A DNA stretch of 34,654 nucleotides from Bacteroidota bacterium (lineage in GTDB: Bacteria; Bacteroidota; Bacteroidia; 2-12-FULL-35-15), in assembly GCA_947380175.1 (NCBI GenBank), contig CANCPZ010000005.1, positions 1 through 34,654 of the forward strand, in the 5' to 3' direction. This document shows positions 8,654 through 21,876 of this stretch, one piece after another (the stretch's first letter is position 1; every line of letters starts with the position of its first letter). The notes below the pieces were generated by a model. It was given only the letters and a program-made list of their open reading frames with translations. It had not been told where the DNA came from and searched no databases. The position numbers and the translations under genes were made by a program.

Positions 8654-10342
8654 TCATCTCTTATTTTTGAGAGTTTTTTTTGATTGCCGAGATGCCCAGG
8701 TGGTGGAATTGGTAGACACGCAGGACTTAAAATCCTGTGTCCATTGCGGACGTATCGGTTCAAGTCCGATCCCGGGTACACAACCGGACTTCTCTGACAA
8801 ATTCAGAGAGTCCGGTTTTTTTATTCCTTCTAAAATCTTTGATGCGTGGGCAACACAGCCAATCACATCGTTTACAATCGGGGTTCGATAATGCTCTATT
8901 TTTGAATCATAGACCAAGCCTTTAGGAAATACTGTATTTTGAAAAATTTGCTTTTGATAATAATCGCTCAAAGCCCAAACAGGTGCGAGATTGGCGGATA
9001 GTTGGCAGGTAAATTGGATCAATTCTTTTGGGTTCGATAATTTTTGGTTTAGCTTTTCAAGGTCACCCAAAAGCTTCTCTTTTCGAACTTTCATTTCAGT
9101 CGAAAACTCCTCATAAATATCCAAACTTACTGCCCCAATTGCATGTCTTTTGCGGAGATTATAGAACTCTTCTTCTACCTCGTTTAATTTCAACGAAAGG
9201 GCTTTTTTCTCCCCTGTGTTGGTTTCTGTTAGGTTTTCCCAAGTATAGCGCAGTTGGATCGCCAAAGGCTCGATTTGGGCAGAATCTACCGTATAAGTTG
9301 CCAATAGCTCTTTGAACTTATCGTGCATAATATTGGTGCTTCGGTTTATCCGAATTCCGATTTTATTTACCTTGTAATAATACAGCCCTTTCTTTTTTAC
9401 CAAATAGCCTGTAAATGGCGCACCACTTTCGGCATCTTTTACAAATACCTTTAATGGCAGGTTATCATTGGCTTTGTTACTTGTGAAGCCATCCGTCTTC
9501 TTTATCTCGTTTGCTCGTAAAAATAAATCCTCATCAATTAATGCCGGATGCCTTCCTTTTATTACTTCGCCATTCAATAAATTATGCGACATAAATCCGC
9601 AATAAAAAGGATTCTTAAAAATTCCGCCAAGCGTTTGTTTTGGCATGTTTAAACCTAAGTGTTTCAATTTTTCTATAATCTGTTCGTAGGTCATTGCATT
9701 GGCTCTCCATATAAACGCTTGTTTAATTAACTCTCCTTTTTCGTTTATCACAATGGTTTGCGATTCCATTCCTTTTACAAATGAATAACCTGTTGGCGCA
9801 TTTCCAATCCAATCGCCACGCAGTAATTTCTCACGCATTCCATCAATTGTTTTTTGTCTTCGTAAATCGTTATCGTACTTACTAAAAATAAATTGAATGT
9901 TTTGTTGCAATGCTCCAGCGTGTGAGTTGGTATCAATGGGCTGTGTAACAGCCATAATATTAACTCCAGTTTTCTTTAATTCTCCTGCGATATAAATTGC
10001 ACTATCTCCTGTTCGGCTGAAACGGTCTAAGCTATAAACTAAAATGAATGAAATTTTTTCTTTACTCGCTTTTACAAATTTGAGCATCCGACTAAATTCT
10101 TTTCGTTCATCGCTCTTCGCACTTTCATACGTTCCTCCAAAAAAGCCTTTTACATCGAGTTTGTTTTTTACAGCATAGTCAACACAGTATTTTTTCTGCC
10201 ATTCCAAACTTTGATTGGTATCCATTTGTTCTTTAGAACTCACCCTTGTGTAGATCACACAATTTTGTATGCCTAAATCTTTTACTTCGTTGCTTTTGCC
10301 TTTGGCAAATTGTTTAAGCAACATCTCGTTCTCCTTCTTCAT
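8654..10342 (-). CDS. Large serine recombinase (site-specific integrase) of the island
   Basis: The N-terminal resolvase domain has YTRVSSKEQ with the nucleophilic serine and LVYSLDRFSRTG. A PF07508-type Recombinase domain follows (about 180-280, GNAPTGYSF onward). A ribbon-like region, GAPFTGYLVKKKGLYYYK, keeps the zinc beta-ribbon pattern but lacks its cysteines, and a coiled coil and C-terminal helices complete it. The ORF track start is GTG at 10351. The ATG at 10342 is better because AAAGGAGGTGA lies 5 bases upstream of it. The last ~45 residues are translated from the opposite strand of the tRNA-Leu terminator and tRNA, so the true end probably depends on the integration state. The start overlaps the partner gene by 29 bases. 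Confidence 0.92.
   Translation of the reverse strand: MKKENEMLLKQFAKGKSNEVKDLGIQNCVIYTRVSSKEQMDTNQSLEWQKKYCVDYAVKNKLDVKGFFGGTYESAKSDERKEFSRMLKFVKASKEKISFILVYSLDRFSRTGDSAIYIAGELKKTGVNIMAVTQPIDTNSHAGALQQNIQFIFSKYDNDLRRQKTIDGMREKLLRGDWIGNAPTGYSFVKGMESQTIVINEKGELIKQAFIWRANAMTYEQIIEKLKHLGLNMPKQTLGGIFKNPFYCGFMSHNLLNGEVIKGRHPALIDEDLFLRANEIKKTDGFTSNKANDNLPLKVFVKDAESGAPFTGYLVKKKGLYYYKVNKIGIRINRSTNIMHDKFKELLATYTVDSAQIEPLAIQLRYTWENLTETNTGEKKALSLKLNEVEEEFYNLRKRHAIGAVSLDIYEEFSTEMKVRKEKLLGDLEKLNQKLSNPKELIQFTCQLSANLAPVWALSDYYQKQIFQNTVFPKGLVYDSKIEHYRTPIVNDVIGCVAHASKILEGIKKPDSLNLSEKSGCVPGIGLEPIRPQWTQDFKSCVSTNSTTWASRQSKKTLKNKR
8694..8778 (+). tRNA. tRNA-Leu (anticodon UAA), island integration site
   Basis: This 85-base class II tRNA has anticodon stem CAGGA/TCCTG with loop CTTAAAA (anticodon 8728-8730), a long variable arm, and T-arm ATCGG-TTCAAGT-CCGAT. 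The acceptor stem GCCCAGG/CCCGGGT contains an A-C mismatch at the fifth pair (8698 against 8773). A 3' arm of CCTGGGT would pair fully. CCA is not fully encoded. The accessory island starts right after it. Confidence 0.93.
8782..8824 (+). terminator. Rho-independent terminator of the tRNA pair
   Basis: The stem AACCGGACT/AGTCCGGTT is extended by a second stem CTCTGA/TCAGAG with one bulge and a small loop, followed by a run of T. It lies inside the recombinase reading frame on the opposite strand. Confidence 0.85.
8807..8817 (+). other. Candidate left attachment repeat (attL core)
   Basis: AGAGTCCGGTT occurs here and again at 34326-34336 in direct orientation. It is the 3' arm of the tRNA-Leu terminator and lies at the recombinase 3' end. 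An 11-base GC-rich direct repeat in this AT-rich sequence is suggestive only. Confidence 0.3.
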
Positions 10343-10544
10343 ATATTTCACCTCCTTTAATTTGTTTTACTTTTTGTTGTTGTAGTTTCTGTTTCATATA
10401 AAGTTCATAAAACAGAATTGATAATTTTTCTAACGATTTAATTGTTTCTTCAGCGTGTTCGTCTGTATAGTTTTCAAAACCTTTGCAGTTCTTCAATTCG
10501 GCAATGGTCAATCGCTTGTGTACTTTCTCCTTCTTCTCAGCCAT
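10314..10544 (-). CDS. Small recombinase-associated protein, unknown function
   Basis: This 76-residue protein is rich in charge and helix, with core LTIAELKNCKGFENYTDEHA and SLEKLSILFYELY. I cannot give it a named function. It lies between the MerR-type gene (9-base gap) and the recombinase (29-base overlap), so a role in recombination control, such as a directionality or accessory factor, is plausible but inferred. A clear paralogue is encoded at 34360-34557 at the other end of the island, in outward orientation. A strong ribosome site AGGGAGG lies 4 bases before the ATG, with a second AAGGAG just upstream. Confidence 0.75.
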   Translation of the reverse strand: MAEKKEKVHKRLTIAELKNCKGFENYTDEHAEETIKSLEKLSILFYELYMKQKLQQQKVKQIKGGEIYEEGERDVA

Positions 10545-10553
10545 TGTGCCTCC

Positions 10554-11540
10554 CTACTCCTTAACAGTTATTACTTTGTATTTACGTTTGCTTCTTGGAT
10601 CAGTATTTTCTACCAAGATTTTCTTCTCAACAGGTTCTTTGGGTTCATCTTCCTTATCTGTAATTCGGAACTCATTATTTTTTTTGTCAATTAAAATAAA
10701 CTCTCGGTATTCCTTTTCACGCAGGATTCTGATGATAGCTTCCTGAGCAGTTTTACTTTTTGTTATTTCAAGTGGCTCATGTTTTTTAGATTTAAAAAGA
10801 ACAAATACTTTTTTGTATTCACCTTCTTTAATATAATACAACAGCTTTCTTTCCTTTACAGTAAATAGGTGTAAGCCATTTAAATATTCAATTAAATAAT
10901 CCTCAATTATAAATTTGAAAATCAAATCGGTTATGTTTACTCTTACTTGAGAATGAAATTCTTTTTTATAAAGTAGCTCTTGCGGATAATGATGTTCGTT
11001 CTCTTTAATAAAAGGGAACCACTCGCCATCGCTAAATACAATAAGCGATACCGATTTACGAGTTGCAATTGCTTCTGTAATTAAAATTTGCAGGTAATTA
11101 AAGTTGAACGGTAGTGTATCGTAGTCGGCAGTTTTATACTCCCCTGATTTAAAGAAATTCAAAAACTCTTCTTTTTCTTCACCTTCGTAGTTTTTTAATA
11201 CATCCATGTGGTTAACGAAGTTTTCAAATAACTCCTTTAATGGCAATGCTTCATAAACATCATCCGTTATTTTTTTAATAACCGGAAGTTGAATGCCAAA
11301 GGATCGTAATTCATTCACTACCTTAATCCATATAAAATCTACAAAACTAAATTTGCGATTGCTTTCTTTTTTTTCTCTTGAAAAACGGATGATTCCCTTT
11401 TCATCCCAATGATTAAGCACACGGTAATTTACTCCGGTATCTTTTGCGCTTAATTTTTCTTCGCAAAGCAATTCATATAACTCTGCGAGTTTATCAATGC
11501 TTTTGGTGTCTATAAACTCTTCTAATTTTACTGAAATCAT
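10554..11540 (-). CDS. MerR-type HTH regulator with long C-terminal domain
   Basis: The 328-residue protein has a MerR-like winged helix at about residues 35-105: TGVNYRVLNHWDEKGII, then NRKFSFVDFIWIKVVNEL and the hinge FGIQLPVIKKI. The C-terminal two thirds have no recognised ligand domain; it ends with a lysine-rich tail. As the first gene of the recombinase operon it probably controls excision or expression of the island. It has its own TACATTTG box at 11588-11581 and an AAAGGAGG ribosome site 4 bases from the ATG. It is much longer than the common 120-150-residue MerR proteins, so the C-terminal domain may sense or bind something specific. Confidence 0.8.
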   Translation of the reverse strand: MISVKLEEFIDTKSIDKLAELYELLCEEKLSAKDTGVNYRVLNHWDEKGIIRFSREKKESNRKFSFVDFIWIKVVNELRSFGIQLPVIKKITDDVYEALPLKELFENFVNHMDVLKNYEGEEKEEFLNFFKSGEYKTADYDTLPFNFNYLQILITEAIATRKSVSLIVFSDGEWFPFIKENEHHYPQELLYKKEFHSQVRVNITDLIFKFIIEDYLIEYLNGLHLFTVKERKLLYYIKEGEYKKVFVLFKSKKHEPLEITKSKTAQEAIIRILREKEYREFILIDKKNNEFRITDKEDEPKEPVEKKILVENTDPRSKRKYKVITVKE

Positions 11541-11580
11541 GCTTCCTCCTTTATTAAATGGTTTTTCGTTTTATTATACA

Positions 11581-11612
11581 CAAATGTAAGACAATACAAA
11601 CGATAATTCCAA
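11581..11612 (-). promoter_or_regulatory. Promoter of the MerR-partner-recombinase operon
   Basis: On the minus strand a perfect TACATTTG box (11588-11581) is preceded, 20 bases upstream, by TTGG (11612-11609). This matches Bacteroidota spacing. The predicted leader is about 40 bases. Confidence 0.5.
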
Positions 11613-11749
11613 GCAAATGTTTCGGCATTTTTATCAAAATCAGTAAATAATTGCTAAAAATCGGTAAATCATAGAGTTAAATATTTATATTGATAATCAA
11701 GTATGTAAGTCAATAATAATCAAAATTTGATGCCGGAACGATCAAAACT

Positions 11750-11893
11750 ATTGTGGGATTAATTGGGGATGATTACATTTGCCGTAAGAACTCTATAAGA
11801 CAAGATTAAGAACATTATAAGAGAAGTATTAGAACAGTGTAGTACAACATTAAGAACTCCATAAGAAACATATTGCGGAATAATTGGAAACAC
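11750..11893 (+). repeat. Centromere-like tandem array: eight 11-bp repeats flanked by ATTGGGGA-type units
   Basis: From 11785 to 11872, 88 bases divide exactly into eight 11-base units. They begin TAAGAACTCTA, TAAGACAAGAT, TAAGAACATTA and TAAGAGAAGTA, then two weaker units, then TAAGAACTCCA and TAAGAAACATA. They are flanked by ATTGTGGGATTA/ATTGGGGATGA (11750-11772) and ATTGCGGAATA/ATTGGAAACAC (11872-11893). The last flank has the same 11+11 form as the downstream array at 12682. The array ends 39 bases before the coiled-coil/winged-helix gene. The rest of 11613-11749 is plain AT-rich sequence. Confidence 0.8.
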
Positions 11894-11932
11894 ATTGGTT
11901 TAAGCACAAAACAACGATAAACTGATAGTAAA

Positions 11933-12478
11933 ATGAAAGATTTAGCGATTAAATACTTAGAAAAACTGGTACTTCAACAGCAAAGTAAAGATGAATTGAT
12001 TAATAAAATACTGCAATTACAGGAGCGTGATAAAGATTTAGTAGATAGATACAGCAATTTGTATAAATCCAAGAAAGAAAGCGATAAAAGCTACCAAGAA
12101 CGGATCAAAGAATATGAAGACCGTATTGAAGAAGTATTTAAAATGCACACGCATGGGCAAATTATTACCGAAGAGTATAAGCGTTTGGTTGATTTGAAGC
12201 TTGGCAACACCTACAACATTAATGCTACGTGGATTGATAAAATTGTTTTTGTTTTAAAAGCTGCCGGAAGACCTATGCGATCTGCCGAAATTATTGATGT
12301 GCTTTTAAAAAACGATATGACCTTCCGTACCCTTACCGATCATCAAAAAGGCTTATCTGCTCATTTAACTAAAGCTTTAAAGTATGGAAGGGTAATTGGA
12401 GAAAAACAAGCCGGTCAAAACGGATATTTGTTTTCTTTGCCAACCGATACAATAAAAAATTCTCTCGATAAAAAGTAG
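11933..12478 (+). CDS. Coiled-coil plus winged-helix-like DNA-binding protein, unknown function
   Basis: The 181-residue protein has a highly charged N-terminal helix of about 80 residues predicted to be a coiled coil (ILQLQERDKDLVDRY, KEYEDRIEEVFK). The C-terminal domain, about 100-172, looks like a HARE-HTH or winged helix: WIDKIVFVLKAAGRPMRSAE, then LSAHLTKALKYGRV and GYLFSLP as the wing. I do not recognise a named family. It has no Shine-Dalgarno site, unlike the leftward recombinase operon. It is co-oriented with the cysteine-rich gene 2 bases downstream, and both are enclosed by the 11-bp repeat arrays. It is the natural candidate to bind these repeats, by analogy with TubR/ParR-type centromere binders; that is inference. 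Confidence 0.7.
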   Translation: MKDLAIKYLEKLVLQQQSKDELINKILQLQERDKDLVDRYSNLYKSKKESDKSYQERIKEYEDRIEEVFKMHTHGQIITEEYKRLVDLKLGNTYNINATWIDKIVFVLKAAGRPMRSAEIIDVLLKNDMTFRTLTDHQKGLSAHLTKALKYGRVIGEKQAGQNGYLFSLPTDTIKNSLDKK

Positions 12479-12480
12479 TT

Positions 12481-12675
12481 ATGATTGAGCCATTAAAAAA
12501 CTTAAAACGATGCGAACGTTGTGGAACCTCCTTCAAGTGTAACGCAAACGATATATCTAACTGCTTTTGTAAAAACATTGCTTTATCTGAAAAGGCAATG
12601 GAAACAATCAGTAAAAATTTTAAAGACTGCTTGTGCGAAACGTGTTTACGTTATTTTCAGAACAAAGCACATTAA
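12481..12675 (+). CDS. Small cysteine-rich CWC-like zinc-binding protein
   Basis: The 64-residue protein has seven cysteines: CERCGTSFKC near the start, NCFC in the middle, and CLCETC near the end. The pattern resembles the cysteine-rich CWC family, which is often stand-alone in Bacteroidota and Proteobacteria and has no assigned biochemical role. It probably binds one or two zinc ions. It starts 2 bases after the winged-helix gene and should be co-translated with it. The second repeat array follows the stop directly. Confidence 0.7.
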   Translation: MIEPLKNLKRCERCGTSFKCNANDISNCFCKNIALSEKAMETISKNFKDCLCETCLRYFQNKAH

Positions 12676-12834
12676 AATTGCATTGTGGGGCAATTGAAAA
12701 CATATCTTTTGTTATTGGGGAGCATTTGGAATTGATTGAGAAGCAATTGGGGAGTATTTGACAACACTTATTTATCAATGTGTTTTAATTGGGGAGGAAT
12801 TGGAAAAACGTTGGTTTTATTGAAATGTTTCAAT
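12671..12834 (+). repeat. Helically phased ATTGGGGA repeats and a 16-bp palindrome
   Basis: Four 22-base elements start at 12682, 12714, 12746 and 12788. Each is made of two 11-base halves of the form ATTGGGGAGNA + ATTGGAAAMAC. Start spacings are 32, 32 and 42, so with 10-base spacers the whole stretch keeps a 10-11 base register, about one DNA turn. It ends with the palindrome ATTGAAATGTTTCAAT (12819-12834), 10 bases from the jetD stop. Confidence 0.75.
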
Positions 12835-12843
12835 TTAGACAAG

Positions 12844-13701
12844 TCAAAATGAATTTATAAGATATTCCTGCTCTAATCCTTTTTTATGTTTATGAATAAT
12901 TTTGATTAAAGAAACTAAATTTTCATTATTTATCTTACTAAGATCAGGTTCTCTATAAATTTGAGTATTATAATTATTTGAATTGCCATTTTCTTTAATC
13001 ATTTTTTCAATTTCATCAGGGATAAAGAAGTCTGCTTTAGTGCCAATATGTTTTTGGTATTCATTTAAAAAAATATTAATTCCTTCAAAATCAAAATCTC
13101 CAAAATGTAAATAATTGTTGGAAGTATTTTTTATCCATTTAACCAAATCCTTATTTTGAGGATATCGAGAAACAAAAAGTGGGGTAATGTTTTTAAAAAA
13201 TCTATCCTGTTTATTTATGTATCTGAAGTTCTCGGGATTTTCTATTCCGATAATAGTTATATTCTTTGGAATAGTAAAAGTCTCGAAATCGTATATAAAT
13301 GTAAATGTCCCTTCAATTGGATTTATTACTGTAGGAATATTGTTTATTGTTGCATTTACCGGCTGATAACAATTTACCAAAAAGCCTTTGAATGTTCTAA
13401 TGTTTTTAACTTTTGAATTTGATGAAATTTCTATTGCCTCGCTACGGGTTAGTTTAGGGTTGTTTATTTGGTCGATGTATTGATTTAGATTATTTATGCC
13501 AAATTCGGTACGCAAATAATTATTCAAGTTTTCAGCATTCTTTATAAAATACATTCGCTTTGACTTACTAATGTTTCTATATTGAATAGCCCCATCCTCA
13601 ACCATTTTTAAAGCTATTGATTGCTTTAATTTACTTGACTGGACTTCTTCCCCATCAAGCATTTGTTTCACTTTCTGCGCTATGCCTATTGGAAGTTTCA
13701 C
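12844..13701 (-). CDS. jetD: Wadjet JetD, TOPRIM (topoisomerase VI-like) DNA-cleaving subunit
   Basis: The 285-residue protein has an N-terminal winged-helix-like region and a C-terminal TOPRIM fold. TIIGIENPENF carries the conserved glutamate (154), HFGDFDFEGINI the acidic pair (D202, D204), and GLEQEYL (277-279) is the conserved JetD end motif. In Wadjet systems JetD cleaves plasmid DNA that the SMC complex has extruded. Many JetD proteins are about 350-400 residues, so this one is compact and seems to have a reduced N-terminal arm. It overlaps jetC by 4 bases (ATGA) and is the last gene of the operon. All metal-binding acidic residues I would expect are present, so it looks active. Confidence 0.9.
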   Translation of the reverse strand: MKLPIGIAQKVKQMLDGEEVQSSKLKQSIALKMVEDGAIQYRNISKSKRMYFIKNAENLNNYLRTEFGINNLNQYIDQINNPKLTRSEAIEISSNSKVKNIRTFKGFLVNCYQPVNATINNIPTVINPIEGTFTFIYDFETFTIPKNITIIGIENPENFRYINKQDRFFKNITPLFVSRYPQNKDLVKWIKNTSNNYLHFGDFDFEGINIFLNEYQKHIGTKADFFIPDEIEKMIKENGNSNNYNTQIYREPDLSKINNENLVSLIKIIHKHKKGLEQEYLINSF

Positions 13702-16700
13702 TCTTGATTGAAGTTTGTTATTAATCGTTTTACTTTCGTGAAATTTTTATCGTCTTTATACAATTGATAAATATGTTTATAACCTAATGCATTATTTTCT
13801 TCTGGAGAACCGTTAATCAAAAATATGTTTCTCTCATTGGCAAATTTCAATAAGCCTTTCATATTATTTGAATGAAGTTTACCAATTTCGTCCATCATAC
13901 AATGTAAATTAAAGTCTTTAAATTGTTTGGACGATTCTCCTTTAGACACATTCAAAAGCATAATGTTTATCATCGCTTTTACCAAAATACCTGTTCCTTC
14001 ACTACCAACACGGTCAAGTTTTTCTTGCCAACCTGTATCGTTTTGGTTTTCAATAATTCTAAATTGCAATTCAAACGAATCTGATAAAGTTATTTTGTCT
14101 TTTTTGGACTCAGTAATTGTTTTTAAAAGAGCCTTCAACAACTCAATGGCTTGTTTATTTTTTTTATCAATGTCTTGAGTTGCAAAAAGATTGTTTGCGC
14201 CTAAAAACTGGTTTTCATTATTGAATTTATCTATGTTTATTAAATAAGATACAATTTTGTTGCTGCTTTCTACCCAACGCAATTCTATTTTTTTGATTGC
14301 TGTAACAAACGCTCCTTTATCAACAAAATCATTATTTATTTTCGTGATGGTTTTCTGAATCGCTCCACCTTTTGACATTAAATTACCAGTCTCTTTACCA
14401 ATAGTATGAATTATGTAAGCAAATCTTTCGTTTACATCCTTTTCAAAGCGTTCAATTTTATTTTCTTCTATAAACTCATTCAGTTCGTCAGCGAATTGTA
14501 AGTATTCTTCTGATTTAACAAAACTTGTTTTGAATTTAAAAATATTGTCAACCGAGAAACTACCTGTGAATTGAATTACTTCGTCACGTAATTCAGCTAA
14601 TCTTTTGGTATATGAGTTGTCAGAAATATTAATTGACTTAATAATTTCCGTGCAATTTTTATCGGTTTTGTTTACCTCTTTTGCTTCTTTAAAAGCAAAA
14701 GGAATATTTTGATAAATTTCAGTTTTAATAAAAGACTCGTACTCTTTTAAATCGGAAATATATTCTGCGTTTTTTAGGTTGAATTTTTTTAATAGTTCTT
14801 CAATAGTTTCAATATCTATTTTTTGCTTTTCTTTTTGCTGCTGATGCTTATCTTCCTCTACTTTTAAGTTCTTCTCAAAAGAATCTTTTTGATTATTAAA
14901 ATCTCCTACCTTATCAAACAATTCTCTTTTATCTTTTTCATATTCAATTAAAAGTCTATTGTTGTTTTCAATAAATTTTAATTCTGTTTCAACAGCTTCA
15001 AGGTTACTATCAATTTCTTTAATTTTTTTCGTGTCGGCCCCCTTATTTGCTAATTCTGAGTGTTGACTTTCTTTTATTTCTTTTTGTTTTTGAGCATAAT
15101 CAAGAATTGATTTTTTAAGTTCTTCATCAATTTTGATTTGTAATACTTCGACCTTTAGTTTTTCTTCATCAATTTTTTTGTCTTTTTCCTTTTCTTTTTC
15201 CTTTTCTATCTTAATTATTTCCTTCTCAATTATTTCAAGAGCGTCCTTTGCATTTAATTCTAATGTTGTCGCTTCGCCAATTTCACTATCAATTTTGGCT
15301 AAATCTTTTTCTTTTTCGGCTTTTGCCGATTTTTCAAAATCAATCAAAGCTAATTTTGCAGCATCTTGTTTTGATGCGTTTTGTTCGCTGTGATAAGTAT
15401 GTTCCTTTACTTCCTCTTTATATTCTTTGATTTTAGGAAGATATTTGCTTTTTAATTTTTCTAAATCATTTTCTAAAATTATTGTTTGTTCAGCGATATT
15501 ATTTTTAACAACCTCTATTTCTTTTGTTAAATCTGCCTTATCTTTTTGATAGTCTGCAATCGTTTTAATATTGTTGTTTATTTCATTAAGGTTTAACTCA
15601 ATTCCATAAAATGTAGCCGATTTAGCTAATAATTTTGGCGATAAAGATGAGTTAAACAATACGTTTTTATCATTATTAATTACTTTCCCTATTGTTTTTT
15701 CCCATCCTGAGTAATTATCGTTTAACCAGCCGAATAATGAATCTTTGCTATTAGCTATATTGAAATTTATCTCGTCAATTTTTGCTTGAAAGACTTGAAT
15801 TTTGTCATTCAATTTTTCAATTAGCCTTGAATAAATATCTCGTTTGCTTTGCTCTTCTAATTCAAATTGCTTTTGTATTGACTCTATCTGAGTTTTAAAA
15901 TGTTTAATTTGATTCTCATTTGTTAATTTAGAATTTATCAAGTCTGTTATTTCAGACTTTTTGCTTTCTATTTCTATGTCTAAATAACGCTTATGTTTTA
16001 TTTCAGTTTTTTTGTTGTATAATAATGAGATTGTTTTCCTTTTCTCTTCCAAAAATATTTTTGCTGTTTCAAGTCTTTCTTTATGTTCTTCTTTTATTTG
16101 CTTGATTATTTTATGATGCAATGTATTTGCCTCATCTTTAAAAGAGAGGAATTTAGATTGAATATTATTTTTTTCTTCCTTTTTTATGTTTTCAAATCCT
16201 TGCTTTTGATTTTCAATTTCCTTTAATAAGGCATCAAATCGCTGGGTTAGTTCTGTGAACTGTGCGGAAAGAATTTGTTTTTCGTTTAATAAACTTCCCT
16301 GATTAGAAAGCAAAACGGGTTTCTTTGATGCTCTCTGTATAATTTCTTCAATGTTTTTTTGCTTGTAATCATCCTCCTTCTCTTTAGCTTTATCAATATT
16401 GCTTTTTAAAACTTTTATGTCCCCAAGTATTTTATCTCTTTTCTTTTGAAAAACTTCGTTTAGCTCTGTAATCTTTTTTAAAAGTGTGGTCTTTTTACCT
16501 TCCTGTAATTCTAATTTTTCTTCGAGTTTTGGTTTTTGAACTTCAATATTATTTATTGCCCAAGCTAATTCCTTTGATAGTTGATATTTTTCTCGTTCTA
16601 AATGTTTTAATGTCGTGTGTAATTTTGCAATCTGTTCGGCTTGCTTCTTTACTATTTCCTCACCATTCTTATTTTTTTCTGTCCATTTTTTTATATCGGT

Positions 16701-17369
16701 AAGCTGTGCATCAAAGCTTTTAAGCTCGTGGATGTATATTTTCAAATCTATTTCTATATCATCATCGCTTAACGATTTTATAATTGTTTGTTTTATAAAT
16801 TCAGCTTTTAATTCCGCATTTAACAAGACATTCTGAATCGTTCTTGGAATATTTTGATACTGTTTACTTTCAAGTAAGGCATATTTTCTATATTCTTTTT
16901 TACCATCATTGTTGCCATATAAGATGTCTCTGTAATCTTCGTATCTATCAATTTTGTTGGAAGATGCAATTTGATTTATATTGAGTTGTTCCTTTATTTG
17001 CTCCCAATTTTCGTAAGCTTTATTTTGCTCATTAATAAACAAACTCTGTTTGTATTCGCTGTCAAAAAAGCGGAAACAAATTTTACCCAAATGTTTATAG
17101 CACAATGCCGAGTATGTGCCAGTTTCTTTTGCTATTTCATAAATAATGTATGAATCGGCAGTAGGGAAATAATATTCACTAAATGATTTTTTATCATTTT
17201 CAATCCCTAATTTTTGTGTATCAGCATTATAAAAAAATAAAATTGCTCTTAACAAAGTGCTTTTCCCAACGCCTTGCGTACCAATAAAATGCACATTGCC
17301 GCCAACTTGCACTTCGGCATACTTTACAGATGCACTGTTTATTAATATTACTTTATTCAGGTATCTCAT
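13698..17369 (-). CDS. jetC: Wadjet JetC, SMC-like ATPase
   Basis: The 1223-residue protein has Walker A GTQGVGKST at residues 30-38 and two very long Lys/Glu-rich coiled-coil arms with a central hinge-like part. Near the C-terminus are the signature-like GSEGTGILVKAMIN (from about 1122) and Walker B CMMDEIGKL with D1160-E1161. This head-coil-hinge-coil-head layout is that of MukB/SMC loop-extruding motors. With JetA and JetB it forms the complex that recognises and extrudes circular plasmids. The start overlaps jetB by 17 bases. Base composition is very A-rich on the coding strand, which fits the coiled coils. Confidence 0.93.
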   Translation of the reverse strand: MRYLNKVILINSASVKYAEVQVGGNVHFIGTQGVGKSTLLRAILFFYNADTQKLGIENDKKSFSEYYFPTADSYIIYEIAKETGTYSALCYKHLGKICFRFFDSEYKQSLFINEQNKAYENWEQIKEQLNINQIASSNKIDRYEDYRDILYGNNDGKKEYRKYALLESKQYQNIPRTIQNVLLNAELKAEFIKQTIIKSLSDDDIEIDLKIYIHELKSFDAQLTDIKKWTEKNKNGEEIVKKQAEQIAKLHTTLKHLEREKYQLSKELAWAINNIEVQKPKLEEKLELQEGKKTTLLKKITELNEVFQKKRDKILGDIKVLKSNIDKAKEKEDDYKQKNIEEIIQRASKKPVLLSNQGSLLNEKQILSAQFTELTQRFDALLKEIENQKQGFENIKKEEKNNIQSKFLSFKDEANTLHHKIIKQIKEEHKERLETAKIFLEEKRKTISLLYNKKTEIKHKRYLDIEIESKKSEITDLINSKLTNENQIKHFKTQIESIQKQFELEEQSKRDIYSRLIEKLNDKIQVFQAKIDEINFNIANSKDSLFGWLNDNYSGWEKTIGKVINNDKNVLFNSSLSPKLLAKSATFYGIELNLNEINNNIKTIADYQKDKADLTKEIEVVKNNIAEQTIILENDLEKLKSKYLPKIKEYKEEVKEHTYHSEQNASKQDAAKLALIDFEKSAKAEKEKDLAKIDSEIGEATTLELNAKDALEIIEKEIIKIEKEKEKEKDKKIDEEKLKVEVLQIKIDEELKKSILDYAQKQKEIKESQHSELANKGADTKKIKEIDSNLEAVETELKFIENNNRLLIEYEKDKRELFDKVGDFNNQKDSFEKNLKVEEDKHQQQKEKQKIDIETIEELLKKFNLKNAEYISDLKEYESFIKTEIYQNIPFAFKEAKEVNKTDKNCTEIIKSINISDNSYTKRLAELRDEVIQFTGSFSVDNIFKFKTSFVKSEEYLQFADELNEFIEENKIERFEKDVNERFAYIIHTIGKETGNLMSKGGAIQKTITKINNDFVDKGAFVTAIKKIELRWVESSNKIVSYLINIDKFNNENQFLGANNLFATQDIDKKNKQAIELLKALLKTITESKKDKITLSDSFELQFRIIENQNDTGWQEKLDRVGSEGTGILVKAMINIMLLNVSKGESSKQFKDFNLHCMMDEIGKLHSNNMKGLLKFANERNIFLINGSPEENNALGYKHIYQLYKDDKNFTKVKRLITNFNQE

Positions 17370-17922
17370 TCTGTATTTCTTCAGGGATATTAATACTTAA
17401 AATTAATTGTTCAACATACTTGAAAGCAGCAACGACCTTATATTGATTACCAATTTCATTTTCTAATTCTACGAACCCTTCCTTTTCTAATATTTTTATA
17501 AGCGAATTTATTTTTTCGTCATAACTCTTTGCATCTCCAATATGCCTTTTTAAGTTATCTAACTTATCTCTGAGGCTAATATCAACCCTAATTTTAACTT
17601 CTATATCGTTTGGATAAAAGCGATAACCATTCGTGAATGAATTATCATACGATTTAAGAAAGTCAATTAAATCAATCCATTTTTCAGCTCTAAGGATTTT
17701 ATTTTCTATATCTATTTTACCTTCTCGTTTTGAAAAATAAAAGTGGTCTTCGCCTTTTTCTAAAACAAAATTAATGGCTAAAAAATAGTCGTATAAAACA
17801 TCCTCATTCTCTTTAATAATATCATACAACCTACAAATATGTTCATCTGTACTGTTGGAACAAACAAATTGCCCCTTGCTTAGTCGTTCAAATATATCGT
17901 TGGTTTTCTCAGGTATATTCAT
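17353..17922 (-). CDS. jetB: Wadjet JetB, KITE-like subunit
   Basis: The 189-residue protein is small, acidic and helical, and its position and size match JetB (DUF4194-like), the MukE/KITE-type subunit that joins kleisin and SMC. Sequence motifs alone are weak. The call rests mainly on gene order, 3 bases after jetA and overlapping jetC by 17 bases. The C-terminal part (about 115-170) looks like a winged helix, LIKILEKEGFVELENEIGNQ. Confidence 0.82.
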   Translation of the reverse strand: MNIPEKTNDIFERLSKGQFVCSNSTDEHICRLYDIIKENEDVLYDYFLAINFVLEKGEDHFYFSKREGKIDIENKILRAEKWIDLIDFLKSYDNSFTNGYRFYPNDIEVKIRVDISLRDKLDNLKRHIGDAKSYDEKINSLIKILEKEGFVELENEIGNQYKVVAAFKYVEQLILSINIPEEIQNEIPE

Positions 17923-17925
17923 ATT

Positions 17926-19116
17926 TTATTTCGGGTAAATCATTGCAAATTCTATATCTTCTTTTCTTGTATAATTGTCGCTATTATTAAACTCATTCTC
18001 ATAAACAGAAGCTAATCTGCAAAAAAGAGTAACCCTTTCACCAAAATCAACTTCTCTTGGAAATTTATAACTCATAATGAAATCAAACAAATGATTACCT
18101 GATGCAATAAATCCTCTTTTAACTTCTTCAATATTTATAAAATACTCTTGTTCTACTTCCGTTTGAAGATAGTTATCTGAAATGATTTCAGATAGTTGAA
18201 TAACTGGTTTGTTTTCAGTTTTAAACTTCCTAATGGCTTTATCTATAATATCCCGTCCCTCATCTGTTTGCAGATAGTCGATTGACAATTTGGTTGAGAA
18301 TTGCAATTTATTTGAAAAGAGCAAGGCGTTATTATTTATTAGAGTAGCTTCAAAATTTGTTTTAGATTTTAATTCAAACATATCTCTCAAATACTTTACC
18401 TGCTTTACCTTCTCAAGTAATTGAGTTTTATGTTTTGTTTGATTGATGTATTCAATAATTTGATTGTGGGTTTCACTGATATTATGTCGTGCATCCGCCA
18501 ACTGTAATCTAAGTTTATTTACAATTTGATTTAATTCAATATCTGAAGCAGTTTTAAAAAACGTTAATTCGTCATTAGTAATTAAATCGTCTGTTTGCTC
18601 AATTAAATCTTTGATTTGCGTTCTCTTTAGATCAAAATTTTCAAGTCTGTCTATTTTGATTTTATAATTTGATTCATATTTAAACGTGTTGTCAATATTT
18701 CTATTAAGGTCAATAATACTTCTGTTGATTATTCTCCCAATTTTTTGTAAAGCTGATTTTGTTTGTTTTAGATATGAAAATTGTTTGTCTGCATTGTTTT
18801 CCTTTAAGTAGAAGTTTATACTGTCTTTTACAAGCTGAATGCTCTCTTGAATAAACGCGGTGCTTATTTGTTCGTTTACCTCAAGTACAAGTTCAAAAAA
18901 ATCTAAATATTGCTCATCAATTTCAAGATAAGCACCATTTTTCCTAATAACTTCAGTTTCTATAAGCTTTTCAACTCTCTCAACATCTCCCAAAACTTGA
19001 ACTGCCATATCATACTTATAGGAAAAGCTATTTCGCTTCTCAAACATTTCTGATAGCAATTCTTTAGACCAGTCAAGAGTCTTAATAAGTTCCTTTATGT
19101 TCTTAAAAACGGTCAT
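17926..19116 (-). CDS. jetA: Wadjet JetA, kleisin-like subunit
   Basis: The 396-residue protein has an N-terminal winged-helix-like region, MAVQVLGDVERVEKLIETEV to EIDEQYLDFFEL. A long helical middle follows (about 100-270), then a C-terminal domain ending EDIEFAMIYPK. This matches the MukF-like kleisin JetA (DUF3375-like), although it is shorter than the 470-500 residues common in type I. It begins 65 bases after the AbiEii stop, on the same strand. No strong promoter is visible in the gap, only a weak TAAATTTC box, so the Wadjet genes may be read from the abiE promoter. Wadjet type (I, II or III) cannot be settled by eye. Confidence 0.85.
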   Translation of the reverse strand: MTVFKNIKELIKTLDWSKELLSEMFEKRNSFSYKYDMAVQVLGDVERVEKLIETEVIRKNGAYLEIDEQYLDFFELVLEVNEQISTAFIQESIQLVKDSINFYLKENNADKQFSYLKQTKSALQKIGRIINRSIIDLNRNIDNTFKYESNYKIKIDRLENFDLKRTQIKDLIEQTDDLITNDELTFFKTASDIELNQIVNKLRLQLADARHNISETHNQIIEYINQTKHKTQLLEKVKQVKYLRDMFELKSKTNFEATLINNNALLFSNKLQFSTKLSIDYLQTDEGRDIIDKAIRKFKTENKPVIQLSEIISDNYLQTEVEQEYFINIEEVKRGFIASGNHLFDFIMSYKFPREVDFGERVTLFCRLASVYENEFNNSDNYTRKEDIEFAMIYPK

Positions 19117-19181
19117 TTATAAGTATGAAATTTAGTTAAAAAAATGGTCTCTTTGACAGCTTCATTTTAAAATAATATGGT

Positions 19182-20009
19182 TTAATCGTTCAGTCCTTTT
19201 ATTACTTCAACAACTAATTTAAATCGCTCCACCAAAGTATCGCCATTATCTCTTACTTCGTACATTGAATCAATTTCTTTTTCAGAAAATCCTTTTAAAC
19301 GACTCACTAAAATTTCGTTCAATTTAGTTGATAATTCTGGACTTCCCAAAGTGATATTTTTAATTTGTCTGCCAAGCAAACGTGCCGATGCAAGTGTAAG
19401 TTCAAAGTCATCTTTTATCAAGTCCTCGTGTTCAACGCCTTCAAATAATTGGTCTCCGGCTATATCTCCATAATTTTCTAACAGGAAATAAAAATCCTCT
19501 AAATCTTTTGATCGTCTATCGGGCTTTTCGTGAAACGCTATTAGTTTTAAAACGCATAAACCGGGCAGGGTAACAACTTTAAATTCGCCATCTACAATTT
19601 TGGCATGAGCCACCGCTTCCTTAGTACCATAAACAGAAAGTTCGGTAGGCGGATTTTCTAACAAAACTTCTCCATCTTTTTCGATACCACCAAAAGGAAT
19701 TAAATCAATTGTTCCGTTAAAATAAAAGCGGTAGGGTTCTTCCTCATCTCTTTTAAAGCCATAGGTTTCAACTAAATCTTTAACAAGGGTTTTGTATTGC
19801 TCGTGTTCGTTTATGTAAATGCAAAAATCAACATCTTCCGTAGTTCGCTTTTCGCCAAGCGCAATATGATCCGTCCACAAATCTCTTGCACGTGCGCCAA
19901 TTAAATAATAGTCGATACCGTACTTTTTAAAAGCCAGTTCTAATACTTCAAAAGTCTCTTTAAGACCTTCATTTTTTAATCGTTCAAAATTTTTCTTTAA
20001 AAAGCTCAT
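19182..20009 (-). CDS. AbiEii-type nucleotidyltransferase toxin (type IV TA)
   Basis: The first ATG is at 20009; the ORF-track start at 20033 is TTG and lies further inside the antitoxin gene. The protein (about 275 residues) has the minimal nucleotidyltransferase core: YYLIGARARDLW, then TTEDVDFCIYI with the metal-binding DxD, and TIDLIPFGGIE with the third carboxylate. AbiEii proteins transfer nucleotides to tRNA acceptor ends or related RNAs and stop growth. The gene overlaps the antitoxin gene by 26 bases, so they are translationally coupled. All catalytic acidic residues are present, so it seems active. Confidence 0.86.
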   Translation of the reverse strand: MSFLKKNFERLKNEGLKETFEVLELAFKKYGIDYYLIGARARDLWTDHIALGEKRTTEDVDFCIYINEHEQYKTLVKDLVETYGFKRDEEEPYRFYFNGTIDLIPFGGIEKDGEVLLENPPTELSVYGTKEAVAHAKIVDGEFKVVTLPGLCVLKLIAFHEKPDRRSKDLEDFYFLLENYGDIAGDQLFEGVEHEDLIKDDFELTLASARLLGRQIKNITLGSPELSTKLNEILVSRLKGFSEKEIDSMYEVRDNGDTLVERFKLVVEVIKGLND

Positions 20010-21000
20010 TGTATATTTTTTGTGCTGTTTCAATACAGCGGTGGTCGCCTGTATTCATTAAATCTGTATAAATCAATAAAGGCGGAACAGTATTATCGTT
20101 TACTTCATCGTGCTTCCAAAACTTTTTGTACACCTTAACATTTCCTTTGGGATCAGGGATTAATCGGTAATGCTTTACCAAATCGTTTCTTGTTTCCAGC
20201 GTATAAAGTGTAAGCACGGCAGGTTTTAAATAATCAGTAAATAAATTTCCGGCAGGTTCGCCACCCCACCAGGTTTTACCTTGTTTTATTGGGAGCCTTT
20301 TCCAATTTACAAAATCTTCCTCTTTTAAAAATCGGAAGGTTCCTATTTCCAATTCGGGCTTTAATTTTTCTGCATACTTTATCATCCAAGTATTCAGCAA
20401 TTCTTTTTTATCGGTTAGTTTATACTCACCTTTATTCATTTTTAAAATGAAGCCTTTTTCTTTTAAGCCATTTAAAATATAATTAACGTTGCCTAAAGCT
20501 ATTTCTGCTTGTTGTGCAATTTCACGGTAGGGGGCATTTATTAAAGTTTCGTCACGTAAAAAATCAAACAACACTTTTAATCCTGTTTTTGTAAATGCAC
20601 GATTAATTTTTTCCTTCTCTTCGGGTAGTGTTTTATTCGCATCAATCCATAAGAAGGTTTTACCAAACTTCAACCATATATTTCCGTTGGTTTCCAAATA
20701 GGCGATGTTGTGATTTCGCAGCTCTTCTTTTATTTTCGGAAAAATTTGATCTGCAATAATGATGAGTGGAGCATGATCTTTTGCTAATTTATAAATCAGA
20801 GGAAGGTTGATTGTGCGCAGGTTGTTTTTAACCTCTGCGTTTAGTTTTATGAGAGTTTCGTCAAGCGTAAACTCAATTTGCCCATCCACTCCGTTGTCGG
20901 CTCTATTTAAGGCAATTGGCTTCCACTTGCCCTTTATTTGGGCAGTTCTTTGGAGGTTTTCCAAAGCCATAATTGCAGTGTTGTGTTCTTTCATGTTCAC
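19984..21000 (-). CDS. AbiEi-type antitoxin / autorepressor (type IV TA)
   Basis: The 338-residue protein has a central winged helix at about residues 150-195 (APYREIAQQAEIALGNVNYILNGLKEKGFILK). A C-terminal domain follows that in the AbiEi family gives antitoxicity. The N-terminal part looks like an added domain, since many AbiEi proteins are about 200-280 residues. AbiEi proteins both neutralise the nucleotidyltransferase and repress their own operon by binding inverted repeats. Two such palindromes flank the promoter here. It has an unusually good ribosome site, AAAGAGGTGAAC, just before the ATG. Confidence 0.82.
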   Translation of the reverse strand: MNMKEHNTAIMALENLQRTAQIKGKWKPIALNRADNGVDGQIEFTLDETLIKLNAEVKNNLRTINLPLIYKLAKDHAPLIIIADQIFPKIKEELRNHNIAYLETNGNIWLKFGKTFLWIDANKTLPEEKEKINRAFTKTGLKVLFDFLRDETLINAPYREIAQQAEIALGNVNYILNGLKEKGFILKMNKGEYKLTDKKELLNTWMIKYAEKLKPELEIGTFRFLKEEDFVNWKRLPIKQGKTWWGGEPAGNLFTDYLKPAVLTLYTLETRNDLVKHYRLIPDPKGNVKVYKKFWKHDEVNDNTVPPLLIYTDLMNTGDHRCIETAQKIYNELFKEKF

Positions 21001-21102: not shown

Positions 21103-21159
21103 TGGTTATTTATAAGTGGGAAGATGTGAATTCAAGCATAAAGGAGAAGATGTGAACGA

Positions 21160-21194
21160 GTATAGAATTCCTTTAGAATTATTGTCGAGATTTG
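21160..21194 (+). promoter_or_regulatory. Regulon box A and promoter of the two-component operon
   Basis: The direct repeat GTATAGAATTC + CTTTAGAATTA (11 bases each, 21160-21181) is followed after 5 bases by GAGATTTG (21187-21194), a near match to TAnnTTTG. Transcription would start within a few bases of the ATG at 21199, so the mRNA may be leaderless. Confidence 0.65.
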
Positions 21195-21198
21195 AGGG

Positions 21199-21876
21199 AT
21201 GAAAATTCTCCTAATAGAAGACGATCCCGATTTACGAAAGTCAATTAAACAATATTTACACCAAGAAGGGTATATAGTTGAATCAGCATCAGATTTTGTA
21301 AAAGCATCGGAAAAGGCAGGGGTTTACGATTACGATTGTGTTTTGGTTGATATAACACTACCTAAAGGGAACGGTTTAGATATTGTAAAACTGTTGAAAG
21401 AAAACAATTCGAAAGCCGGAATTATAATAATTTCAGCTAAAAATTCATCTGACGATAAAATTAACGGGCTTGATTTAGGGGCAGACGACTATTTGGCTAA
21501 GCCCTTCAATTTAGCAGAACTGAATTCACGAATTAAGGCACTTATTAGGAGACGAAATTTTGATGGCAACAAAGCCATTGTTGTAAATGAAATAACAATT
21601 ATCACCGATGAGCGAATTGTTAAAGTAAATAATGAACAAGTTGCTTTGACTGCAAAAGAATACGATTTACTTCTATTCTTTATCTCAAATAAAAACCGAG
21701 TAGTATCAAAAAATTCAATTGCCGAGCATTTGTGGGGTGACGACAGCGACCAAATGGATAGCCACGATTTTATCTATGTGCATTTGAGAAATCTTAGAAA
21801 GAAAATGGCAGAAAAAGGATGTGCTGATTATGTGCAAACAATATATGGAATAGGATACAATTTTAAAATAAGCTAA
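21199..21876 (+). CDS. OmpR/PhoB-family response regulator
   Basis: The 225-residue protein has a receiver domain with acidic pocket EDD (7-9), phosphoacceptor D51 in VLVDITLP and conserved K101 in AKPF. Its C-terminal OmpR-type winged helix includes LTAKEYDLLLFFISN and VYVHLRNLRKK-like HDFIYVHLRNLRKK, then YGIGYNF. It should dimerise on direct repeats when phosphorylated. Its stop codon shares one base with the kinase start (TAATG), so the pair is translationally coupled. The four CTTWAGAWTTN double boxes in this module, one in its own promoter, are its likely targets (inference). Confidence 0.95.
   Translation: MKILLIEDDPDLRKSIKQYLHQEGYIVESASDFVKASEKAGVYDYDCVLVDITLPKGNGLDIVKLLKENNSKAGIIIISAKNSSDDKINGLDLGADDYLAKPFNLAELNSRIKALIRRRNFDGNKAIVVNEITIITDERIVKVNNEQVALTAKEYDLLLFFISNKNRVVSKNSIAEHLWGDDSDQMDSHDFIYVHLRNLRKKMAEKGCADYVQTIYGIGYNFKIS

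Follow-up and report, generated by a model that had tools for sequence, protein, structure and literature searches.

An 11-bp direct-repeat array upstream of a winged-helix gene in the integration region of a Bacteroidota island

The island and its conserved module

The window, the whole stretch of 34,654 nucleotides analysed here, is part of a Bacteroidota MAG and contains an island inserted at the 3' end of a tRNA-Leu gene (Table 1). Beside the tRNA lies an operon encoding a MerR-like regulator, a small ORF and a serine integrase, the last also matching the PHROG integrase family (3.2e-61). Facing away from this operon is the gene of a 181-residue protein with a predicted coiled coil and a winged helix (hereafter wHTH). 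Homologous loci share the integrase, the small ORF, the MerR-like gene, the repeat region described below and the wHTH gene wherever the contig extends that far. The small ORF has no family match in Pfam or PHROG and is present in nearly all homologous islands; it was not detected in L047, the most distant homologous locus. The serine integrase adjoins a tRNA in the homologous islands too, either tRNA-Leu of several isoacceptors or tRNA-Met, and MerR-like homologues mostly adjoin a serine integrase. Integrase homologues end in tRNA-encoded VAGTGLEPMTFGL-type tails, and the window integrase ORF likewise enters tRNA-Leu (8654–8779).

Genes after wHTH diverge almost immediately among homologous loci and often look like defence genes; L037, for example, has an AbiE-like pair, with translations judged by eye. 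In the window the first of these genes encodes a cysteine-rich CWC protein. The original prediction had taken the wHTH and CWC genes as a unit, which they are not, because among homologous loci the CWC gene is confined to the window and to an identical island in another MAG (L030). The CWC gene is cargo, outside the conserved module. Further cargo comprises AbiE genes and a Wadjet-like operon (12844–19116) of a divergent type. The first gene of this operon (17926–19116, in the JetA position) and JetD give weak PADLOC matches or none.

The right end of the island was placed where host homology resumes, with right-flank homology to four relatives beginning at 21158–21199. This end could not be reconstructed from an empty site: in the genus, tRNA-Leu is a hotspot, and its other loci have different neighbours. 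Two MAGs share an identical 11.8-kb Wadjet/AbiE island (window 8774–20610; L030 1–18678), with zero mismatches over 9100–20610. The L030 copy is inserted in a different tRNA-Leu gene (CAA), and the identity begins at the tRNA 3' end, GGGTAC; its contig stops inside AbiEi, and its right end lies outside the contig. The identity reflects either a recent transfer or an assembly or binning effect. Two further assembly observations concern the homologous loci: the L046 contig, labelled Candidatus Saccharibacteria, has the Bacteroidota island module and is probably misbinned, and two contigs of one MAG (L035 and L036, G233) each begin at wHTH residue 23, which suggests two near-identical island copies collapsed in assembly.

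Table 1. Features of the island, with coordinates in the window
Feature	Position	Strand	Basis
tRNA-Leu (UAA); its 3' end serves as the island's left attachment site	8694–8779	+	ARAGORN; identity with L030 from GGGTAC, 8774
Serine integrase; ORF end runs into the tRNA gene	8654–10351	-	Pfam Resolvase 7.9e-25, Recombinase 1.9e-10
Small conserved ORF, 76 aa, integrase operon	10314–10544	-	
MerR-like regulator, first gene of the integrase operon	10554–11540	-	Pfam MerR_1 5.4e-10
Palindrome TTGATAATCAA	11690–11700	no strand	alignment of 15 intergenic regions
wHTH promoter, Bacteroidota-type, TTG-N20-TACATTTG	11751–11781	+	PMC7366714 consensus match
Extended array: 13 units in a single 11-bp register, from the promoter to near the start codon	11763–11905	+	
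Core array: eight 11-bp units (four 22-bp repeats, AAGAAC core)	11785–11872	+	
Predicted coiled-coil/winged-helix protein (wHTH), 181 aa	11933–12478	+	
CWC protein, cysteine-rich, 64 aa	12481–12675	+	Pfam PF14375 8.3e-11
Downstream cluster of ATTGGGGAGNATTTG-type sites, whole-helical-turn spacing	12682–12820	+	
Wadjet-like JetD, JetC, JetB (MksE) and a gene in the JetA position	12844–19116	-	Pfam, PADLOC; JetA by position only
AbiEii/AbiEi	19182–21000	-	Pfam, PADLOC
Right end of the island, approximate	21150–21164	no strand	host synteny back at about 21158

The repeat array lies at the likely wHTH promoter

The array occupies a divergent promoter region, with the MerR-like/integrase operon on one side and wHTH on the other. 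Its core consists of the units TAAGAACTCTA, TAAGACAAGAT, TAAGAACATTA, TAAGAGAAGTA, TTAGAACAGTG, TAGTACAACAT, TAAGAACTCCA and TAAGAAACATA, which follow one another in register over 11785–11872. The units share a mean pairwise identity of 0.588. Dinucleotide shuffles average 0.371 and peak at 0.455, and none of 1000 equals the observed value, in agreement with the eight exact 11-bp units of the original prediction. The same stretch is the highest-scoring 11x8 array in the whole 34.7-kb window. When periods of 8 to 25 are compared, only 22 rivals 11; TRF calls the stretch as a 22-bp repeat, and the autocorrelation upstream of wHTH peaks at lags 11, 22, 44 and 33. Further upstream, the ATTGTGGG/ATTGGGGA pair (ATTG; 11750 and 11762), described earlier as having 11+11 spacing, is in fact 12 bp apart and overlaps the likely wHTH promoter. 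The upstream array pattern is present at this one place only in a scan of the host genome, which fits a local rather than a global regulator.

The motif TTG-N20-TAnnTTTG, a published Bacteroides promoter consensus (PMC7366714), is found just upstream of the array in 13 of 15 main-family loci; a match occurs in 0.95% of shuffles of the region. With the promoter directly before it, the array starts near the expected transcription start and fills the wHTH leader. The wHTH gene thus has a repeat array that overlaps and follows its own promoter, as the genes of direct-repeat autorepressors do. The palindrome TTGATAATCAA lies between the two promoters, is conserved or nearly so in most of the 15 aligned intergenic regions, and is a possible site of the MerR-like protein. 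Across the same alignment the 22-bp AAGAAC repeats stay in register, and every main-family locus tested has 11 as its best period. In L047, whose protein shows 54% identity, the sequence has changed at most other positions, and little is left apart from the 22-bp AAGAAC register.

Four 22-bp repeats in an AT-rich sequence could alternatively be replication iterons, the region serving as an origin after excision. A perfect DnaA-box string, TTATACACA, does occur in most main-family regions (TTATCCACA in L066 and L067), but it lies where the likely promoter of the MerR gene starts, and L037, L038, L046 and L047 lack an intact copy. The 11-bp sub-period and the roughly 20 irregular units of L180 are unlike iterons, and a Rep protein is absent, with no Rep family found among the window proteins in Pfam or PHROG. 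We therefore consider an origin highly improbable. With direct repeats of 10–12 bp next to a small wHTH gene, the locus also resembles the ParR/parC and TubR/tubC centromeres. Unlike in those systems, there is no filament-forming NTPase here—no ParA, ParM or TubZ was found by Pfam among the larger ORFs of the window—and the element is not a plasmid but, with its serine integrase, is inserted at tRNA-Leu. A motor-driven centromere is unlikely. The segregation or replication module that had first been suggested accordingly finds neither a partition NTPase nor a Rep protein in the window. The conserved serine integrase, small ORF and MerR-like gene beside the tRNA instead identify the control region of an integration module, rather than an autonomous replicon or a centromere cassette.

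The array accompanies the wHTH gene

The AlphaFold2 model of the wHTH protein (mean pLDDT 78, pTM 0.46) has a long N-terminal helix (19–89), a probable coiled coil, and a C-terminal winged helix (about 100–168). A Foldseek search with this model returned generic winged helices (MarR, PadR, FoxO, the pNOB8 centromere-binding protein), none with E<0.001. HARE-HTH (PF05066) matches 9 of 17 members weakly, with a best E of 0.037, below the Pfam gathering threshold. No informative family match was found in PHROG or in profile searches of the members, and sequence searches of the PDB gave chance coiled-coil matches and no relative. Relatives of wHTH were likewise found in none of 72,556 plasmid records, none of 50,697 phage records and none of the viral contigs. 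A limited search of the open literature found no description of this family, and we know of none.

One uniform array test was applied to 23 wHTH loci and to 29 MerR-like loci without wHTH. An 11-bp array is present within 400 bp upstream of 20 of the 23 wHTH homologues and at 2 of the 29 control loci (Fisher p = 2.7e-9, for loci that are related and not independent); with the main family collapsed, 6 of 8 wHTH loci have an array. The original prediction, which was to fall if homologues had no repeats around them, passes on this point for the upstream array. The arrays also stay with wHTH when the neighbours change. L066 and L067 (G142), islands at tRNA-Ser with an integrase and wHTH and without the MerR-like gene, have a clear 11-bp TTAGAA array. 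L180, with a serine integrase, a MerR-like gene and a wHTH relative, has about 20 irregular units; L181, a tyrosine-integrase island at tRNA-Ser, has a wHTH relative and GTAGAAACAAG units; and in L182 and L184 a wHTH relative with an array is divergent from an XRE/ImmA-type regulator. Unit sequences vary between loci (TAAGAAC, TTAGAA, GTAGAAAC, TATAGAA), with a recurring WRGAA core. Because arrays stay with wHTH as its neighbours change, and because of the co-occurrence above, the wHTH protein appears to be the likeliest binder of the array. The earlier claim that the 181-residue protein binds these repeats thereby gains support from the association of arrays with its homologues, rather than from binding itself.

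Several loci depart from this pattern. L005, where a type I R-M gene adjoins the wHTH relative, has no array, the wHTH locus L183 fails the statistical array test, and L158 passes it without wHTH. L139 also passes, but its repeats lie inside a coding region, and this apparent array was discounted. In the tyrosine-integrase islands at tRNA-Ser and tRNA-Glu (L181 6577–8699; L183 6611–8755), the wHTH relative comes straight after the integrase, with a AAGGTAGAAAC-type 11-bp array between the two genes.

The array might be occupied not by wHTH but by the MerR-like protein, as a BldC-like filament between the divergent genes. BldC, itself MerR-like, binds direct repeats as cooperative multimers (PMC5859096), the MerR-like gene is the first of the integrase operon, and L147 has an array and a MerR-like gene without wHTH. 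Arrays nevertheless persist without the MerR-like gene in L066, L067, L181, L182 and L184, 27 of the 29 MerR-like loci without wHTH have no 11-bp array in the uniform test, and the conserved palindrome TTGATAATCAA is a more usual MerR-type target. We regard such a filament as unlikely, and the MerR-like protein is unsupported as a general array partner in the 29-locus control. BldC resembles what is predicted for wHTH in that it is a winged-helix protein bound head-to-tail on direct repeats; being MerR-like, it is a candidate analogue of the MerR-like neighbour rather than of wHTH.

A looser cluster downstream

Sites of ATTGGGGAGNATTTG type also occur behind the CWC gene, at 12682, 12714, 12735, 12746 and 12788, with spacings of 32, 21, 11 and 42 bp and autocorrelation peaks at 42, 32, 11, 31 and 21 bp. 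Five ATTGYGGAGCAATTG-like matches (at most 3 mismatches) fall within 165 bp, where shuffles have a mean of 0.035 and a maximum of 2; the remainder of the window has 6. The set is a sparse, helically phased cluster, looser than the upstream repeats, and not a tandem array. The positions 12682, 12714, 12746 and 12788 were correct in the original prediction, to which 12735 is added, but their reading as a tandem array does not hold. Neither does the layout with repeats on both sides generalize: among homologous loci, clear copies of the cluster are found only in the window, its L030 counterpart and L027, and most other homologous islands are without it. L032 has a G-rich 11-bp variant downstream, and L035 perhaps a remnant of the cluster. 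With so few loci having copies, a downstream array was rejected as a general feature.

The element in L027 looks minimal: the cluster comes after wHTH, and no more than about 160 bp separate it from host-type phaB sequence. In the window, cargo separates the cluster from the right end by ~8.3 kb. The window cluster is not at a promoter, and simple autoregulation does not account for it; it may be an old site near the end of the element, or an operator on the cargo side.

The wHTH protein might, in addition to regulating a promoter through the array, act as an Apl- or Cox-like recombination directionality factor that favours excision at the att sites. Winged-helix directionality factors typically have direct repeats phased at one turn (PMC7498355, PMC11963761), the wHTH gene sits in the integration module, and the array and wHTH directly follow the tyrosine integrase gene in L181 and L183. 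The closeness of the second cluster in L027 to host sequence at the right end of the island also points this way. By inspection, however, neither end of the window island has an array, the downstream cluster being far from the right end, and the cluster is missing from most other islands. Serine-integrase directionality factors generally work by binding the integrase. Serine and tyrosine integrases differ in their directionality mechanisms, making it unlikely that one wHTH family would serve both in this role. As to a relation with known directionality factors, the structure search gives matches to the generic winged-helix fold only, and the PDB has no sequence relative. We give this additional function a rather small chance.

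A candidate autoregulatory operator

The array is probably an operator of wHTH in the integration control region of the island. The analysis establishes the register of the repeats, the match to a promoter, the neighbouring genes, the joint occurrence of array and wHTH, and that the island is mobile; we infer that the wHTH protein binds the array cooperatively, represses its own gene and influences the integrase operon. The protein would probably dimerise through the long N-terminal helix and bind head-to-tail to a low-specificity core (about WRGAA or TTGGGGA), with one subunit per helical turn. Binding is expected to be weak at each site and cooperative over 8–13 sites. The resulting filament would extend over the wHTH promoter and the beginning of the transcribed region, and wHTH would thereby repress itself. 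From the shared divergent region, wHTH may also affect the MerR-like/small-ORF/integrase operon, and through it the excision and integration of the island.

Direct-repeat operators of mobile-element regulators are already known as a kind. The closest models for the working of wHTH are Apl of coliphage 186 (PMC7498355), BldC, KfrA and StbA, which bind a single site weakly but act cooperatively on direct repeats spaced by one turn. Like the array, the Apl repeats recur every 10–11 bp, seven of them in the promoter switch region. Apl and P2 Cox are small DNA-binding proteins of integrative elements with a repressor role, as predicted for wHTH. Unlike wHTH, Apl is a small protein lacking a coiled coil, and works beside a tyrosine integrase, whereas the main family has a serine recombinase; Apl also has further repeats at attP, where the ends of the window island have none. 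KfrA (RA3/RK2), a coiled-coil autorepressor that also serves in maintenance, acts on 9-bp direct repeats at its own promoter (PMC7783346) and corresponds to the coiled-coil autorepressor with repeated sites over its own promoter that we predict for wHTH. The architecture differs: the HTH of KfrA is N-terminal with a long C-terminal tail, whereas wHTH has its coiled coil at the N-terminus and its winged helix at the C-terminus. StbA of R388 has around its own promoter two groups (stbDRs) of five 9-bp repeats each, with 2 nt between repeats and thus an 11-bp period, and provides plasmid stability without a motor (PMC3098194). It resembles wHTH as a DNA-binding protein with such arrays, and its role in the upkeep of its element may have a counterpart in wHTH, but it is plasmid-borne and lies in an operon with stbB and stbC, whereas the wHTH element is an integrated island; the likeness is one of workings, not of homology.

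StbA and KfrA are also the models for a different main function, in which the array, like those of StbA, KfrA or pSK1 Par, is a motor-less stabilisation site that helps to retain the excised circle, autoregulation being a by-product. Both precedents combine direct repeats at their own promoter with maintenance, and a StbA-like stabilisation role for wHTH and the array is possible. As the primary function of the array it is improbable: the element is integrated and has no recognisable replicon, the island is without a partition NTPase, and wHTH relatives are absent from the plasmid, phage and viral sequences searched. Relatives of wHTH in other bacteria have similar rows of repeats, which makes a self-regulating switch more likely than a plasmid-type centromere.

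If the array is the autoregulatory operator proposed here, it would likely be the control element, and wHTH the regulator, of widespread tRNA-inserted Bacteroidota defence islands with a serine integrase, a MerR-like gene and wHTH. Integrase regulation in islands carrying Wadjet, AbiE or restriction genes appears undescribed in the open literature searched. For an uncharacterised wHTH family, the array sequence provides a predicted DNA target, and the idea is therefore directly testable. A more far-reaching version, which we hold to be speculative and rather unlikely, is that wHTH and its 11-bp array form a portable module of an undescribed family that works with unrelated recombinases of the serine and tyrosine types, its filament not only repressing the wHTH gene but also controlling excision or stabilising the excised island without a motor. 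Such a module would be a recombinase-independent maintenance switch in Bacteroidota islands with varied cargo.

Islands without wHTH show arrangements of their own. A MerR-like/serine integrase pair without wHTH is found in L139, L146, L147, L149, L162 and L166–L169, often with a small divergent protein instead that has a CxxC..YCSxxCR-like zinc motif. The 11-bp array of L147 (6706–6790; unit TCCGTAAAATA, alternating at 22 bp) lies just before such a small zinc-type gene, divergent from the MerR-like/serine integrase pair and next to a tmRNA.
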